Positions 43,634-49,281 of a stretch of 64,000 nucleotides of DNA are shown in pieces (position 1 is the stretch's first letter; each line of letters opens with the position of its first letter). The notes beneath the pieces were generated by a model that worked only from the letters and a program-made list of their open reading frames with translations, was not told the origin of the DNA and ran no database searches. Source of the stretch: a bacterium (GTDB taxonomy: Bacteria; UBA10199; 2-02-FULL-44-16; JAAZCA01); NCBI GenBank assembly GCA_021810905.1, contig JAJZQH010000004.1, positions 62,001 to 126,000 of the forward strand, in the 5' to 3' direction. Both the position numbers and the translations under genes were made by a program.

Positions 43634-45086
43634 CGGTTTCCCCCTTGATTCTGTCATCAGCAGCGGGCAATTCAGCTCCCACCGCATGCAGGAGTTCGGC
43701 ATAGGACGTGGAGATATTCATCCGCGCGCCTATGAGCTGAGCCCTGGCCGACGCGAGCACGCTCTGCGCATTCAGAAGCTCCACGATGTCTGCGGCGCCT
43801 TCTTTGTAGCGGGCTGAAGATGCGTCGAACGATTCGGAGGCGCTCGTGAGAAGGCTCTTGCTCGCCGTGAACTGCTCCAGGGCAGTGCGATAGTTAGAAT
43901 AAGCGTCCCAGACGTCCGTGACCACACTCTCTTCCTGAGTCTTGAGAGACGCGCGTGCGGCGTCGAGCTGGGCGCGCGCAGCCCTGACCGAATTCTTCAT
44001 ATTGAATCCGTCGAAGATGGGGACTGAGAGCGTGACGCCGCCGTAATTGAACGTTCCGTTCTGGTCCTTCGTGGTCAGGATCTGCGAGGAGGCGGTGCCG
44101 TTCAACTGTGGAAACGGCAGCGCCCTGGCGGCCTTGAGCTGGGCAGCGGCCTGGTCCACTGCATGGACAGCTGCGCCGAGCGCCGGCCTGTTCTCTCTCG
44201 CCAGATCCACGAGCCCATCCACGCTGCGGCTGAATTCCTTCACCGGCAGGCGATCCGGTTCCCGTGCGATCTCGAAGCGCCTGTTCGCGGGCCAACCTAT
44301 TGCAGTTGCGAGATTGCCCTTGGTGATCGCGACCTGGCCTCTGTCTGAGGCCAGCCTGAGCCTCACCTGATCCGCGTTCGATCGCGCCTGCAGGACGTCG
44401 GAGAGCGTGCTCACGCCGGATTTCAGCCTCTCCTCCGTAGAACGCACGGTCGTTTCCGCCTCGATAAGACTCTTTTCATCCGCGGCCACGAGGGCCTTTG
44501 CCGCGAGGTGCGTATAATAAGCCTGCGGGACGTTTCGCAGCACGTCCTGAATCGCCTGATTATGATTCCAGTTTGCCGCCATGAGCGCCTGCTTTGCGGC
44601 CTCGGCCTTTGCGCCCCGGCCGCCGAAATCGAGCAGCAGATAATTGAGGGTGGCGTTGGCGCTCACGAAGGATTCGCCCCCCTGCAGCTGCGGAATATCT
44701 CCGCCGTTCGCAACAACCGCCGCTGAGACCGAGGGATAATAAGGTGCGTGCGAGATTCCCCAGTTTGCGGCCGAGGCCTGGGCCTGCGCCCAGGCATAGC
44801 GCGTGACCGGATTGATCTGCAGGGCAATATCCACAAGCTCCGCGAGCGTGTAGATATTGCCGTCCGTCTGCTCCGCAGGGCTGGGCTCCGCGAGATTACC
44901 CTCCGCCGCCGGCAGGGAGATCGGGCCTCCCTTGTAATCGGGCACTTGCGAAGGCGAGGGCGCAACGTATCTGGATGGATTTATTTCAGGCAGAGAATGA
45001 GCTGCACTGGAAAAGAGGATGACGAATCCGATGGACAACAGAACTACCCGCGAAATGCGGGAGAGGATACTTCTTATGATATTCAT
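43620..45086 (-). CDS. Outer-membrane efflux protein (TolC/OprM type)
   Basis: 488 residues with signal peptide MNIIRSILSRISRVVLLSIG; start ATG 45086 (GTG 45107 possible). Two OEP repeats: ADEKSLIEAETTVRSTEERL with KSGVSTLSDVLQARSNADQV, and SLLTSASESFDASSARYKEG with AADIVELLNAQSVLASARAQ. NYGGVTLSVPIFDGFNMKNS is typical of the second repeat. First gene of the three-gene efflux operon; no dedicated regulator is adjacent. Confidence 0.95.
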   Translation of the reverse strand: MNIIRSILSRISRVVLLSIGFVILFSSAAHSLPEINPSRYVAPSPSQVPDYKGGPISLPAAEGNLAEPSPAEQTDGNIYTLAELVDIALQINPVTRYAWAQAQASAANWGISHAPYYPSVSAAVVANGGDIPQLQGGESFVSANATLNYLLLDFGGRGAKAEAAKQALMAANWNHNQAIQDVLRNVPQAYYTHLAAKALVAADEKSLIEAETTVRSTEERLKSGVSTLSDVLQARSNADQVRLRLASDRGQVAITKGNLATAIGWPANRRFEIAREPDRLPVKEFSRSVDGLVDLARENRPALGAAVHAVDQAAAQLKAARALPFPQLNGTASSQILTTKDQNGTFNYGGVTLSVPIFDGFNMKNSVRAARAQLDAARASLKTQEESVVTDVWDAYSNYRTALEQFTASKSLLTSASESFDASSARYKEGAADIVELLNAQSVLASARAQLIGARMNISTSYAELLHAVGAELPAADDRIKGETDAAQ

Positions 45087-45215
45087 TCGGATGGACGCGG
45101 TGCGCACTGAACGATCCCGTTTATTGAGTGTTCTTCAATAGTTGGATCATGTGGACATGTCAAATATGATAGGGGGACAGGCTCTGGAGCTTGTCATTTC
45201 AAGAGCTGCAGGGGA

Positions 45216-46580
45216 TCACTCGGGGCAGCGCACGTCGTGGTGGTCGGCCGCCTTGCGGCCGAGTTCCATGCCGCGGGGCCACGCGATGAACTTCTTGACG
45301 AAGTGGTGCGGGAGGTAACTCTGCTTTGCCTTGCGCAGGCCCGGGATTCCCAGGTCCTGCTCGCGGTTGACGAACTCGAAATCCTGGAGAGCTTCCCTGC
45401 AGAACCACTGGTTGATGAGCTGGTAGATGCCCTTCACATCGGAATTGCCCTTCTCGAAATGGATCACTGCGGTATTCGCGTTCAGTCGTTCGCCGATCGT
45501 GAACGCCTCAATGACGCCGTCGGCTCGGATGGCTCCTCCGATCAGGCCGAGCGCCTCGTAATTATCGAAGAGCTCCTGCAGGGCCTGATATTCATGACAC
45601 AGGCCGGGTTCTTGTCCGCACCCGCGCGCCTCACACCAGCGCCTGGCCATGTCGCGGACCTCGGAGAGGTTTTCCATAGAGATCTTTTCGTAGCGGCATT
45701 CGTGCTCCGAGAGGCACTGGGCGATGAGGTTGCGTTTTGCGTGATAATTGCGACCGGCCAGCTCGGCGAGATCTACGCGGCGATAGACGTAGTCGAAGTT
45801 GTCGCGGTCTTCGGTCACCTCCCAGCCGTTTTTGAGCGCGGACGATGCGGCGTGCTCGGTCAGACGCAGGATCGCCACGACCTGCCGGCCGCTTTCCCGT
45901 TCAACGGCCTGCATTGCATTCGCAATAGAGATGTCGCCGATGGGCGGCCCTGCGATCAGGGCGGAATCGTCTATGTCTTCGTAGACTATGATCGCGCCGT
46001 TGTGCTCCGCTATGCGTACCCGGTGAAAGAGTCTCCAGACGAAAAAATTGGTAAAAGTATGTTCAGAGATGTCAGGCGGATACGACGCCAGCATCCGGTC
46101 TACGGCCGCTTTATGGGCGAGCGAGACCGGGCCCTGAAGCGGCGCCTCGATTCGCGAGAATGCCTTGCGCATCCTGCGATGAACGATGCCGACCTCCTCG
46201 AACGGTTCGCCGTCGATTGCATAGCCGAGTTTTTCGTAGAACGGAACGATAGGTTCCCGTGCGTGGATGTACGCATCGGAAAAGCCCGCGGCGAGGAGCC
46301 TTGCCTCCATCTCGCGCAGGAGCGAGCTGCCCACTCCATGCCGCTGGAACTGCGGCTCCACGGCCATCTGAAAGATCCTCCCAGATTTGCCCTCGGGCCT
46401 GAAGAGCACGCAGCCTATGACGCGGCCGCACTCGATCGCCACCAGGTGCATGCTTTCGCGCTCGAACGAAAAGAGCTCCGAGCCGGGCGGCATGCGCAGC
46501 GGTTTGCGCAGCAGTTCAAAGCGGAGGTCCTGCTCCTGCGCATAAAAGGGGTCGTCGACAGAGATGAGTTTGAATTCCAT
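45216..46580 (-). CDS. GNAT acetyltransferase fused to DUF2156 domain
   Basis: 454 residues, two domains. Residues 1-145: GNAT, with VIGCVLFRPEGKSGRIFQMA and the acetyl-CoA loop VEPQFQRHGVGSSLLREMEA. Residues 150-454: DUF2156-like (phosphatidylglycerol lysyltransferase C-terminal fold, itself GNAT-like), with PDISEHTFTNFFVWR, GAIRADGVIEAFTIGERLN and the diagnostic NREQDLGIPGLRKAKQSYLP. The fusion suggests an acyltransferase acting with aminoacyl or acyl donors; substrates unknown. The stop of the ATPase gene upstream lies 3 bp before its start, so the two are probably co-transcribed. Confidence 0.85.
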   Translation of the reverse strand: MEFKLISVDDPFYAQEQDLRFELLRKPLRMPPGSELFSFERESMHLVAIECGRVIGCVLFRPEGKSGRIFQMAVEPQFQRHGVGSSLLREMEARLLAAGFSDAYIHAREPIVPFYEKLGYAIDGEPFEEVGIVHRRMRKAFSRIEAPLQGPVSLAHKAAVDRMLASYPPDISEHTFTNFFVWRLFHRVRIAEHNGAIIVYEDIDDSALIAGPPIGDISIANAMQAVERESGRQVVAILRLTEHAASSALKNGWEVTEDRDNFDYVYRRVDLAELAGRNYHAKRNLIAQCLSEHECRYEKISMENLSEVRDMARRWCEARGCGQEPGLCHEYQALQELFDNYEALGLIGGAIRADGVIEAFTIGERLNANTAVIHFEKGNSDVKGIYQLINQWFCREALQDFEFVNREQDLGIPGLRKAKQSYLPHHFVKKFIAWPRGMELGRKAADHHDVRCPE

Positions 46581-46582
46581 GA

Positions 46583-47806
46583 TTACACGAAGCTCCTGAG
46601 AAATGCCGCAGCGCCGGTCACCCAGACGCGCAAGTCGCCTGCAACGCGATAGCGTCCCTCCTGTTCTTCTTGGGTCACAAGAACTGTGTGCCGGGGCGTG
46701 AGCGCGCTGGCCATGTGGAGGAGCGATCGGGGCAACTCATCACCCTTGAGTTTGCATTCAATGAGCATCCACGGTTTTTTCTCCCTGAGAATTAAAAAGT
46801 CTACTTCACGTTTTTCAAGATCGCGAACATAATAGAGATCAAACTCGCCGGCTCCTGTGTCGTTCCAGAAGTCGATTGATTTTTTGAGGTGCACGGCCAC
46901 CATATTTTCGAACCGCGCGCCCGGATCCACGATCTCCGACCAGTCAAAGAGAAAAAACTTGGCTTCTTTTTTGAGCCCCCGCGCTATCTGTTTTGAATAC
47001 GGAGCGATACGAAAGCAGTAGTAGATTGCCTCAAGCCATTTGAGCCACGTGCGCACGGCATTATAGCTGACATCAAGCGATTCGCGCAGTGAATTGATCG
47101 AGAGGGTGGAGCCGACCGTTGCGATGACAAGGTCCATGAGATTTTCGATGTGGCTCAGGTCGTGAATTTTGGAGAGGTCTCGGAGATCCTCCTTGATCAG
47201 ACGCTCCCTTCGCATCCTCTTCCAGCGTCGATGGAACGCATCCTTCCCTTCAAGCAGCGGTTCTGGAAAACCTCCGAACTTGAGGAGTGATTCCAACGCA
47301 GCTTTTGTCTCAGCGTCCGTCCCGGACGAGAGTTCAGCGGGCGGTGAAGGATTCATGCGGCCCAACAACTCATTCACGGAAAACGGGTGGAGGTGCAGGA
47401 GCCAATAGCGGCCGAGGAGGCTGTCTCCGCCGCGGCGATAGACATCGAGCCGGGCACTCCCTGTGACGAATGTCGCGAGATCGTCCCGGAAACTGTCGAA
47501 GTATCCTTTGAGAAAGGCCTTCCACTTGGGATATTTGTGCAGTTCATCAAAGATGATGAGAGGTTTCGTCTTTGCATTGGCAATCTCTTCCTTGAAGAAC
47601 GTGTAATGGATGTCGCGCACCGGTTTCCTGTCCACAGGCCTGTCCCAGTTCAGATATGCGATGTTTTTGTATCCGAGCTGCGGGCCGATGTCCTGCAGGA
47701 GGGTTGTCTTGCCCACCTGCCTTGGCCCTGCGACAAAGACCATCTTTTTCAAATCTTCGGGGTGGGCAAGAAGATGGGTGCCGAGATAGCGACGCTTGGG
47801 TTGCAT
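46583..47806 (-). CDS. AAA_14/DUF4143 ATPase
   Basis: 407 residues. P-loop VFVAGPRQVGKTTLLQDIG (about 24-42), Walker B PLIIFDELHKYPKWKAFL, sensor FVTGSARLDVYRRGGDSLLG; then a helical part and the C-terminal DUF4143 domain with a PD-(D/E)XK-like core: GEFDLYYVRDLEKREVDFLI and PWMLIECKLKGDE (D...ExK). The family is widespread in bacteria and archaea and often accessory; function is not settled. ATG 47806 has no ribosome binding site: a 30-bp palindrome ends two bases upstream, suggesting autoregulation or a leaderless message. Confidence 0.92.
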   Translation of the reverse strand: MQPKRRYLGTHLLAHPEDLKKMVFVAGPRQVGKTTLLQDIGPQLGYKNIAYLNWDRPVDRKPVRDIHYTFFKEEIANAKTKPLIIFDELHKYPKWKAFLKGYFDSFRDDLATFVTGSARLDVYRRGGDSLLGRYWLLHLHPFSVNELLGRMNPSPPAELSSGTDAETKAALESLLKFGGFPEPLLEGKDAFHRRWKRMRRERLIKEDLRDLSKIHDLSHIENLMDLVIATVGSTLSINSLRESLDVSYNAVRTWLKWLEAIYYCFRIAPYSKQIARGLKKEAKFFLFDWSEIVDPGARFENMVAVHLKKSIDFWNDTGAGEFDLYYVRDLEKREVDFLILREKKPWMLIECKLKGDELPRSLLHMASALTPRHTVLVTQEEQEGRYRVAGDLRVWVTGAAAFLRSFV

Positions 47807-47808
47807 GT

Positions 47809-47866
47809 GATAAGTTTACCTGTATAGGTAAACTTATCAAGATAAATTGATCTGTATAGGTAAAAA
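47809..47866. promoter_or_regulatory. Operator-like palindrome and its partial direct repeat before the DUF4143 gene
   Basis: GATAAGTTTACCT (47809-47821), GTAT, AGGTAAACTTATC (47826-47838): a perfect 13-bp-arm palindrome. A second copy, GATAAATTGATCTGTATAGG then TAAA, follows at 47841-47864, a 32-bp period. It directly abuts the ATG. Confidence 0.75.
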
Positions 47867-48240
47867 AGCTGCTGATTCTGAGGGACATTGCGTGGTCTTT
47901 CAGCGCATCGGTGTCAGGCGATTTTGGGAAGCGGATAACTCGCCGACATTGCAGACGAATTCAAATTATCGGGCATTTAACCCTAATCCGGCATAACTTG
48001 CTATCAACACCCCCTCTCCCTCAATGGGAGAGGGTTGGGGAGAGGGTGAACAATTGGAACCAAGTCTACCGCAAGTGAATTTCCCCTCTCCCTGTCCCTC
48101 TCCCACAAGGGGAGAGGGGACGCTACTTTGCAGGTCAGGCATATGAGTTTTATTACCGGATTAAGGTTAACAATGATGAACTCAAAGTCGCCTGGCACCG
48201 GAATCATGTCCATCATAGTCCCATAGCTGAATGATCTAGT
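47867..48240. other. Intergenic region with Ccctctccc palindromes
   Basis: No gene seen. At about 48008-48050 CCCCCTCTCCC-tcaat-GGGAGAGGG, and at about 48085-48119 CCCCTCTCCC ... GGGGAGAGGGG; these match the repeat at 2957-2979. Shortly before the NHL gene GTCGCCTGGCACCGG resembles the GTGCCAGGC stem at 2180. Confidence 0.6.
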
Positions 48241-49281
48241 TCAGGAATTTGAAGGCGCTGCGATGCAGGAAACTTTGTACACCCTATAGGGCGGAGCACC
48301 ATCACCATTCGAAAAAAAGAGATTTCCATCCTTATCAATCGCAACTCCCGACGGATGAAATAAAGCTGCGTCCTTGGCCAAAATATTTTGCCCTGACGAA
48401 GGGTCTTGTGTCCCGCCTCCCGCAACTGTTTGAATGATTCCTTGCGTATCGATCTTCCTGATTCGATTGTTTCCGAAATCAGCAAAATAGAGATTGCCCG
48501 CAGAATCAACTGTAATATCCCAAGGCCACCAGACACTCGCTAACTTCGCCTCGCCGCCATCTTCCGAAAAAGCCCATTGGCCATTTCCGGCAATTTTAGT
48601 CACATTTCCAAGCGGATCAATCTTTCGGATATAGTATTGATCAGTGACGTAAAGATTTCCCTGCCCATCGAAAACCATGCTGCCCATCCTACTGGCATCT
48701 GGAATGTCAACGAATATTGAAGGAGGACTTACCAAGGACATCTTGTAAATTGAATTTCCAGATGCAACATAAATTATCTCTGAGGGCATTGCGGTCTTGA
48801 CAGCAATCGCTCCTCCACCGATTGAATTGGGCACCGTCGTCATCACCCCTTGCGGCGAAAGCATACTAACTTGCGGACCACCTGCAATGAAGATGTTCCC
48901 TTGCAGGTCTATGGCAAAGTCTGCCACAGCCTCCTTGTCGAGGAGTTTCGTTACAGTGCCGTTCATGTCGATTTTATCAAGCTTATCATCATACGAATCC
49001 GGGGCTACAAAAAGGTTCCCTTCATTGTCGAAAGCTAATTTGCCCCTCGTAGGGGCGAATTTGCTCATCGTACCGCATATTATTGTTAAAGGAAGGGGAG
49101 TTTTCTGCACAGGTCCGATGGTAACAGATCGCGAAGCAGGTTTCGTAATGGCCTGTTGACTGGGTTGTGTGGGACTGCTGACCGCTGGTTTTGTTGCGGT
49201 TATCTCCGCGCCATATAAGATGGTTGGAGCAAAAAAGAACAGCAGACACAGAGCAAATGATCCACTCTTGATGATCGACAT
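48241..49281 (-). CDS. Exported NHL-repeat protein
   Basis: 346 residues from ATG 49281 (GGGAGG, 5 nt upstream). Signal peptide MSIIKSGSFALCLLFFFAPT, cleavage near LYGA-EI. The rest is a beta-propeller of NHL repeats: GKLAFDNEGNLFVAPDSYDD, VADFAIDLQGNIFIAGGPQV, GSMVFDGQGNLYVTDQYYIR, WDITVDSAGNLYFADFGNNR, SGVAIDKDGNLFFSNGDGAP. No enzyme domain. Likely a periplasmic or surface binding protein. Its leader contains CGGGGGAACA, as in orphans A and B. Confidence 0.9.
   Translation of the reverse strand: MSIIKSGSFALCLLFFFAPTILYGAEITATKPAVSSPTQPSQQAITKPASRSVTIGPVQKTPLPLTIICGTMSKFAPTRGKLAFDNEGNLFVAPDSYDDKLDKIDMNGTVTKLLDKEAVADFAIDLQGNIFIAGGPQVSMLSPQGVMTTVPNSIGGGAIAVKTAMPSEIIYVASGNSIYKMSLVSPPSIFVDIPDASRMGSMVFDGQGNLYVTDQYYIRKIDPLGNVTKIAGNGQWAFSEDGGEAKLASVWWPWDITVDSAGNLYFADFGNNRIRKIDTQGIIQTVAGGGTQDPSSGQNILAKDAALFHPSGVAIDKDGNLFFSNGDGAPPYRVYKVSCIAAPSNS

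Follow-up and report, generated by a model that had tools for sequence, protein, structure and literature searches.

The window analysed here is a 64,000-nt stretch of a bacterial contig, in which an ATPase gene on the minus strand is preceded by a perfect palindrome lying almost against its start codon and by a degenerate second copy of that palindrome. The features of the locus, in order of position, are as follows:

45216 to 46580, minus strand: gene with GNAT and LPG_synthase_C domains (Pfam), downstream of the ATPase gene and outside the unit; this adjacency was not seen in the other loci searched.
46583 to 47806, minus strand: AAA_14-DUF4143 ATPase gene, PADLOC PDC-S01-like, 407 aa (open reading frame, Pfam and PADLOC model PDLC04790, E = 1.8e-44).
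46592 to 46960, minus strand: PD-(D/E)XK-like domain, residues 283-405, with E300, E334, D336, E350 and K352 conserved in at least 95% of 112 relatives.
47006 to 47158, minus strand: winged-helix region, residues 217-267 (alignment and AlphaFold2 model, pLDDT 91-93 for residues 221-270).
47207 to 47806, minus strand: STAND/AAA-like nucleotide-binding part, residues 1-200 (Walker A G27-T34, D87 E88, GFP at 179-181).
47804 to 47806, minus strand: ATG and predicted transcription start of a leaderless message, as judged from the -10 box at -12.
47808 to 47839, no strand: O1, putative operator, a perfect palindrome of 32 bp whose centre lies 17.5 nt before the A of the ATG, in the register of the family.
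47813 to 47818, minus strand: -10 box TAAACT, inside the right O1 arm, after a 16-bp spacer.
47816 to 47818, minus strand: in-frame TAA upstream of the ATG, at codon -4, in the right O1 arm.
47835 to 47840, minus strand: -35 box TTGATA, at the O2/O1 junction and the outer end of the left O1 arm.
47840 to 47871, no strand: O2, putative operator, a degenerate second copy centred at -49.5, 32 bp from O1, with its best-matching part at 47841-47864.

The first-pass annotation had called the product a DUF4143 ATPase of a family whose role is unknown. Pfam bore out the identity, both AAA_14 (96.9 bits, cut-off 27, E = 1.2e-27) and DUF4143 (77 bits, cut-off 28.1, E = 1.8e-21) scoring above cut-off. 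The statement on role needs updating, since the protein matches seven models of the PADLOC defence candidate PDC-S01, with PDLC04790 being the best. We take the PDC-S01 family to be COG1373. The sections of PMC12988326 that deal with PDC-S01 rank it as the fourth most common prokaryotic defence system, with 29,494 bacterial and 9,986 archaeal systems, and state that experimental validation is pending for most PDCs; an account of rumen genomes names it, in the part concerned with it, as the most frequent individual locus (PMC13356809).

Walker A and B residues G27, P28, R29, Q30, G32, K33, T34, D87 and E88 were conserved in at least 95% of the 112 relatives. The AlphaFold2 model (14 sequences, pLDDT 80.4, pTM 0.85) placed the winged-helix helices at residues 217-229, 237-244 and 248-260, and ordered the PD-(D/E)XK-like domain as helix-strand-strand-strand-helix-strand, that is, with the alpha-beta-beta-beta-alpha-beta core and a D...ExK motif. 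The closest solved fold was SSO1545 (2fna; Z = 15.7, 258 residues aligned at 5.0 Å, covering residues 1-294), followed by PABY2304 (Z = 15.1), a clamp-loader subunit (14.5 over 129 residues), and CED-4 and the plant NLR RPP1 (13.4 each); sequence identity in these matches was about 15%, and the PD-(D/E)XK-like part was barely covered. As modelled, the fold fits a STAND ATPase. In a Foldseek list ordered by E-value, eukaryotic AAA+ and RuvB chains came first, with low TM-scores; this list was not relied on, and a sequence search of the PDB returned no trusted relative, the best match being 8g28_A (E = 0.0078) over the nucleotide-binding part only.

The inverted repeat O1 has arms TGATAAGTTTACCT and AGGTAAACTTATCA, with 14 of 14 pairs matched around a 4-bp loop. 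It had been reported earlier as a 30-bp palindrome ending two bases before the ATG; the palindrome is real and perfect, but it is 32 bp long and a single base separates it from the A at 47806. The second partial copy, said to lie 32 bp further on, was indeed present at 47841-47864 (24 nt at 88% identity to O1, the two starts being 32 bp apart). None of 3000 dinucleotide shuffles of the upstream region reached its inverted-repeat score of 14, and the 30-bp palindrome pattern, allowing up to three mismatches, had no further match within the window and none in 100 shuffles. The whole genome (2.98 Mb in 21 contigs) holds 13 DUF4143 matches, spread over 12 reading frames. In it the 14 specified core bases of O1 have a single exact occurrence; allowing two mismatches added the gene's own second copy plus one further site (C15:8103).

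A separate element lies further upstream, at 47995-48135. This repeat of 141 bp contains many CCCTCTCCC/GGGAGAGGG inverted motifs and has six long copies in the genome including the one in the window (88-100% identity, 95-141 bp) and additional shorter pieces. An Rfam search over 45000-49000 gave matches that were all under the gathering score, among them miRNA models over the repeat at 48003-48127.

Scanning of 47750-48150 revealed a sole promoter-like site, TTGATA-16-TAAACT on the minus strand (mean of 0.2 in shuffles). Its -10 box ends 6 nt before the ATG, which falls within the spacing of about 5-8 nt characteristic of leaderless genes. A start further upstream is barred by the in-frame TAA in the right O1 arm, and the next in-frame starts downstream, TTG19 and ATG22, are disfavoured because R6 is conserved in at least 95% of the 112 relatives. 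The earlier statement that there is no ribosome binding site proved nearly, albeit not strictly, true: GGAG, GAGG and AGGA were not found before the ATG, but a 4-nt AGGT, at most a poor Shine-Dalgarno site, lies 11 nt before it in the right O1 arm. Since Shine-Dalgarno use in the window is itself modest (a word of at least 4 nt precedes the first ATG in 27 of 46 called genes, 19.7 expected), absence alone is weak evidence, and the case for a leaderless message rests on promoter spacing. On that spacing we predict that the ATPase message is leaderless.

Folded as RNA, the palindromic region reaches -18.7 kcal/mol (z = -4.9), as low as none of 200 shuffles, which would suit a hairpin acting in translation control, message stability or termination. 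However, the sole promoter-like site sits inside the palindrome, so that the hairpin would not be transcribed from it; the interval 47750-48150 holds no terminator-like site, and a tandem 32-bp register would be expected of DNA sites over an RNA stem. We consider the hairpin explanation very improbable.

The comparison of DUF4143 upstream regions that had been proposed at first pass was run on 112 genes of the window's clade and 28 more distant ones, and the palindromic promoter pattern recurs. With the window protein as query, relatives were detected in 85 of 146 genomes. The clade set comprises 112 distinct upstream regions from 40 genomes, taken best-scoring places first: 117 tblastn genes yielded 115 with usable starts, and 112 after removal of duplicates. 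The distant set was selected with the DUF4143 profile (PF13635) instead of by similarity to the window protein; of the 30 best matches 28 were used, two having been dropped for want of a usable start. Both sets thus consist of best-scoring places and are not random samples, and their start codons were picked by rule, so some will be wrong (e.g. L024 and L028). As controls we used 167 neighbour genes from the same loci as the clade set, and two other families from the same genomes, Fic (29 of 30 loci used) and ATPase_2 (27 of 30).

Identity at a lag of 32 reached 0.439 in the 112 clade regions, with all other lags between 10 and 59 at or below 0.310 and neighbours at 0.268. Inverted repeats at p < 0.05 preceded 76 of 112 clade genes versus 17 of 167 neighbours; other random-shuffle runs gave 75 and 79 of 112 for the clade, and 12.5% of 112 sampled neighbours and 18 of 167. 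Direct repeats at the same threshold were found in 48/112 versus 7/167, either type of repeat in 92/112 versus 23/167, and agreement of at least 0.5 among four half-sites in 67/112 versus 2/167. Inverted-repeat centres in the clade showed three peaks, one at -17.5, one at -33.5 to -34.5 and one at -49.5, positions that correspond to two tandem palindromes and their junction. The nearest relative found (69% identity) has a similar core and keeps both copies and the 32-bp spacing; its core has no other site in its genome at up to one mismatch.

Promoter elements recur in the same register. Among the 112 clade regions TTGAC starts at -34 to -36 in 46 places and TA[ACT]AAT at -12 in 20, while the best promoter score exceeds 6 for 102 genes. 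In 67 of 112 clade genes (shuffled mean 2.6, maximum 5 in 8 runs), versus 8 of 167 neighbours (shuffled mean 4.9, maximum 8), the -10 box begins 9-14 nt ahead of the start codon. This last comparison is weakened by the fact that neighbour starts (longest open reading frame, first ATG, GTG or TTG), like those of Fic and ATPase_2 (first ATG), are less trustworthy than those of the DUF4143 genes; the shuffle nulls are unaffected by the starts of other families. Neighbour upstream regions are also less AT-rich (GC 0.42 versus 0.31), and shuffles control for composition, not for start errors. In the distant set the leaderless spacing was seen in 17 of 28 genes (shuffled mean 0.6, maximum 2). Most clade genes look leaderless, because a sigma-70-like -10 box stands at this distance in 67 of them, and the earlier suggestion of a leaderless message with a palindrome over its core promoter gains computational support from the sole site in the window and from both sets of relatives. 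Exceptions exist: 36 of 112 clade genes lack an inverted repeat at p < 0.05, and 45 lack a promoter at leaderless spacing. GGAG, GAGG or AGGA precede the start in 13/112 DUF4143 genes versus 48/167 neighbours, the two groups differing in base composition. Two loci of one genome (L114 and L149 in G109) represent a natural leadered variant, keeping the repeats and following them with a leader that carries AGGAGG.

Conserved gene neighbourhoods were sought among open reading frames of at least 50 aa within 1500 nt of the clade genes, where the sequence reached that far. The largest non-DUF4143 family occurred at 3 of 112 loci, another DUF4143 gene lay nearby at 12, and a conserved adjacent partner gene of the type II toxin-antitoxin kind was not found among the 112 loci. 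A functional link to the downstream gene, a GNAT-DUF2156 fusion in the first-pass annotation, was not supported. In 150 DUF4143 loci with downstream flanks of about 1-1.5 kb, long matches to this GNAT-LPG_synthase gene came only from the two loci that represent the window's own copy, the sole other hit being a weak 72-residue match at L133. The adjacency looks incidental.

Much of the clade shares the outer stretch of the half-site, about TGACTATTTT, which supplies the -35 box in forward and the -10 box in inverted orientation. The three inner bases agree across the four half-sites of a gene and differ between genes. With the register fixed by the outer part alone and all 112 genes included, within-gene agreement of this inner code was 0.539, compared with 0.305 for shuffled partners (maximum of 1000 shuffles 0.345); for neighbour genes the corresponding values were 0.251 and 0.254. 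A contrast calculated on 44 genes was set aside as inflated, these genes having been chosen partly by half-site agreement.

Similarity of the inner code was weakly related to whole-protein identity in the 44 selected genes (rho = 0.131, 1 of 500 permutations as high), a link that common descent alone could explain. Across 67 genes, operators were no more alike where winged helices were more alike (rho = -0.004, matched or exceeded in 149 of 300 permutations), and Mantel tests of whole operator against whole protein gave rho = 0.007 for 112 genes and -0.041 for 67. A 40-residue segment, 321-360, reached rho = 0.178 against the operator, a value without a permutation test of its own that we do not claim as a signal. 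For the PD-(D/E)XK-like domain the partial signal was borderline (0.082, matched or exceeded in 14 of 300 permutations) and likewise is not claimed. Operator similarity was 0.430 within a genome (227 pairs) versus 0.417 between genomes (5989 pairs).

These data bear on whether the palindromes are instead bound by a host transcription factor whose gene lies elsewhere, with the ATPase gene only as its target. The half-site part common to many genes speaks for such a factor, but promoter boxes can explain that part, whereas the inner code agrees within a gene and differs between genes, and operators are hardly more alike within a genome than between genomes. Furthermore, the exact core occurs once in the window genome, and in genome G026 sites with up to one mismatch lie only at the gene's own two copies. 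A separate host factor is in our judgement unlikely. The simplest source of a gene-specific reader would be the gene itself, because the inner code is private, neighbours do not recur and the operators of paralogues are hardly more alike.

The core TTTACCTRTAYAGGTAAA was tried as a general mark of the family and rejected: genome contigs contain 37 exact stretches of it, none of which the window protein matches at E = 0.01. When these stretches were compared with 28 of the 112 clade proteins and 38 proteins of a second set, one (L080) held a distant DUF4143 match, with the palindrome about 290 bp past its 3' end. In three of five stretches inspected (L057, L075 and L067, from two Pseudomonas and one Burkholderiales), TTTACCTGTACAGGTAAA precedes an open reading frame starting MKRKQ and is apparently the operator of a different regulator. 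A role for the core as a viral target or decoy was not adopted either: viral contigs gave 18 stretches of it versus 4 of a control palindrome of like composition, and a single control is too few to support such a role.

Beyond the clade, inverted repeats were found in 15 of the 28 distant DUF4143 genes and direct repeats in one. As direct repeats are this rare, the tandem 32-bp form appears to belong to the window's clade, and the leaderless inverted-repeat form to extend more widely, within this 28-locus sample. Fic controls showed inverted repeats in 8/29 and leaderless spacing in 3/29; for ATPase_2 (PF01637; L251-L280) the counts were 16/27 and 2/27. This other P-loop ATPase family would therefore have promoter repeats in common with DUF4143 but not the leaderless spacing, its starts being less certain. 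Inspection by eye showed two Fic loci (L221 and L222) with an inverted repeat of the ATATGGT...ACCATAT type that ends at their start codon, and three distant DUF4143 loci (L168, L215 and L217) that appear to have arrays of short direct repeats in place of palindromes. In each of ten genomes of 1.8-4.6 Mb (G005, G011, G012, G015, G020, G026, G029, G037, G045 and G088) the family is strikingly expanded, to at least 23 DUF4143 matches.

Twelve named plasmid relatives were inspected as well. Those of Azotobacter salinestris and A. chroococcum have arms of 17 and 14 bp, respectively, overlapping the ATG. On a plasmid of Candidatus Rhabdochlamydia oedothoracis (L164), a tandem repeat at about 1459-1507 ends just before an in-frame ATG located 48 nt upstream of the annotated start, which is probably placed too far downstream. 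Others of the 12, e.g. those of Runella and Allochromatium, showed no clear palindrome at the start. The viral set comprised 14 of 16 loci; L210 and L211, which have the same length and score as L209, were left out. Two of these relatives (L218 and L219), identical in upstream sequence, have 15-bp arms at the start, and most others of the 14 lack a start-codon palindrome; the window protein alone as query found no relative in viral contigs.

Ten of the 12 plasmid relatives have a transposase, integrase or toxin-antitoxin-type gene in the stretch shown. Together with the strongly conserved PD-(D/E)XK-like residues, this would suit a palindrome that is no operator but a site targeted by a mobile element, or lying at its junction, or else a target of the ATPase's nuclease-like domain. 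Nevertheless, a second exact or one-mismatch copy was found neither at the gene's other end nor elsewhere in the genome, and the position relative to the -35 box, -10 box and ATG recurs among relatives, which a target site would not need. We judge this explanation improbable.

Our preferred reading, which we hold to be probable on the sequence comparisons above, is that the gene is leaderless and that the palindrome serves as its promoter-proximal operator, a private site read by the gene's own product. RNA polymerase would use TTGATA-16-TAAACT and start at or beside the A of the ATG, leaving the mRNA without a leader. The -35 and -10 boxes lie in the two arms of one palindrome, O1, with O2 placed 32 bp or about three helical turns upstream. 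The ATPase would most likely bind O1 and O2 as dimers and turn its own promoter off, and its nucleotide or ligand state would set its release from these putative operators. Three observations favour the compact autoregulated unit envisaged at first pass, with the ATPase as the presumed binder: the operator architecture recurs, the half-sites are private to each gene, and no neighbour family recurs beside the clade genes.

The product could instead activate its own promoter, or the tandem sites could form a bistable switch. Activators bind upstream of the -35 box, where O2 lies, and the -10 box TAAACT is weak; O1, however, reaches from the -35 box through the spacer and the -10 box to the predicted start, where repressors typically bind. 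Activation or bistability strikes us as unlikely, and repression by the gene's own product remains the favoured mode. The winged helix of STAND proteins is often a regulatory domain and not a DNA reader. Related ATPases nonetheless offer precedents for DNA binding or transcription control: according to the relevant part of PMC4599002, such a domain binds DNA in Rx1, and IniR, described in part of PMC5760070, combines an SSO1545-like ATPase domain with a separate DNA-binding domain and controls transcription.

More speculatively, and as a tentative proposal, each PDC-S01 gene of the clade might be a closed, self-addressed switch. Its STAND ATPase would read a private word, present in up to four copies, at its own leaderless promoter. 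The resting protein would be the repressor, and a phage signal or a change of nucleotide state would release it, freeing the nuclease-like domain and firing the leaderless message at once; tens of paralogues would then amount to tens of mutually insulated sensors. Very common immune-like proteins may in this way control their own switching. One private word for each gene would, if true, show how an expanded family avoids cross-talk, and a STAND-type ATPase would be added that may be both a regulator of its own gene and a nuclease. The recurrent operator also provides an experimental handle, in the form of a predicted DNA ligand for each protein, a reporter of the activation signal and a means of correcting start codons.

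The window ATPase belongs to the same protein family as PDC-S01, described as an ATPase fused to PD-(D/E)XK; its promoter and operator architecture does not feature in the portion of PMC12988326 that describes the system. A literature search on DUF4143, AAA_14/PF13173, PDC-S01, COG1373, SSO1545 and leaderless defence, with most subscription papers and all preprints outside its scope, found no report of this promoter architecture among the matches listed. With SSO1545, PABY2304 and NLR-type STAND ATPases the protein shares the arrangement of nucleotide-binding and winged-helix parts (Z = 15.7 and 15.1, and 13.4 for CED-4 and RPP1), at about 15% identity and with the C-terminal domain barely compared. 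Controller proteins of restriction-modification systems are small separate helix-turn-helix proteins. Their likeness to the present case is that a defence-type gene under self-control has tandem palindromic sites at its promoter; unlike in those systems, no recurrent regulator gene stands beside the ATPase. Lambda cI expressed from PRM, and other leaderless autoregulated repressors, combine a leaderless message with operators over the regulator's own promoter, and the present gene resembles them in both respects. There, however, the regulator is a classical helix-turn-helix repressor, whereas the present gene would rely on a STAND ATPase carrying a nuclease-like domain and, as we propose, on an operator word private to each paralogue. 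Leaderless autoregulation at this locus would accordingly be a new variant of that scheme, in a very common uncharacterised family whose members presumably bind their own operators.
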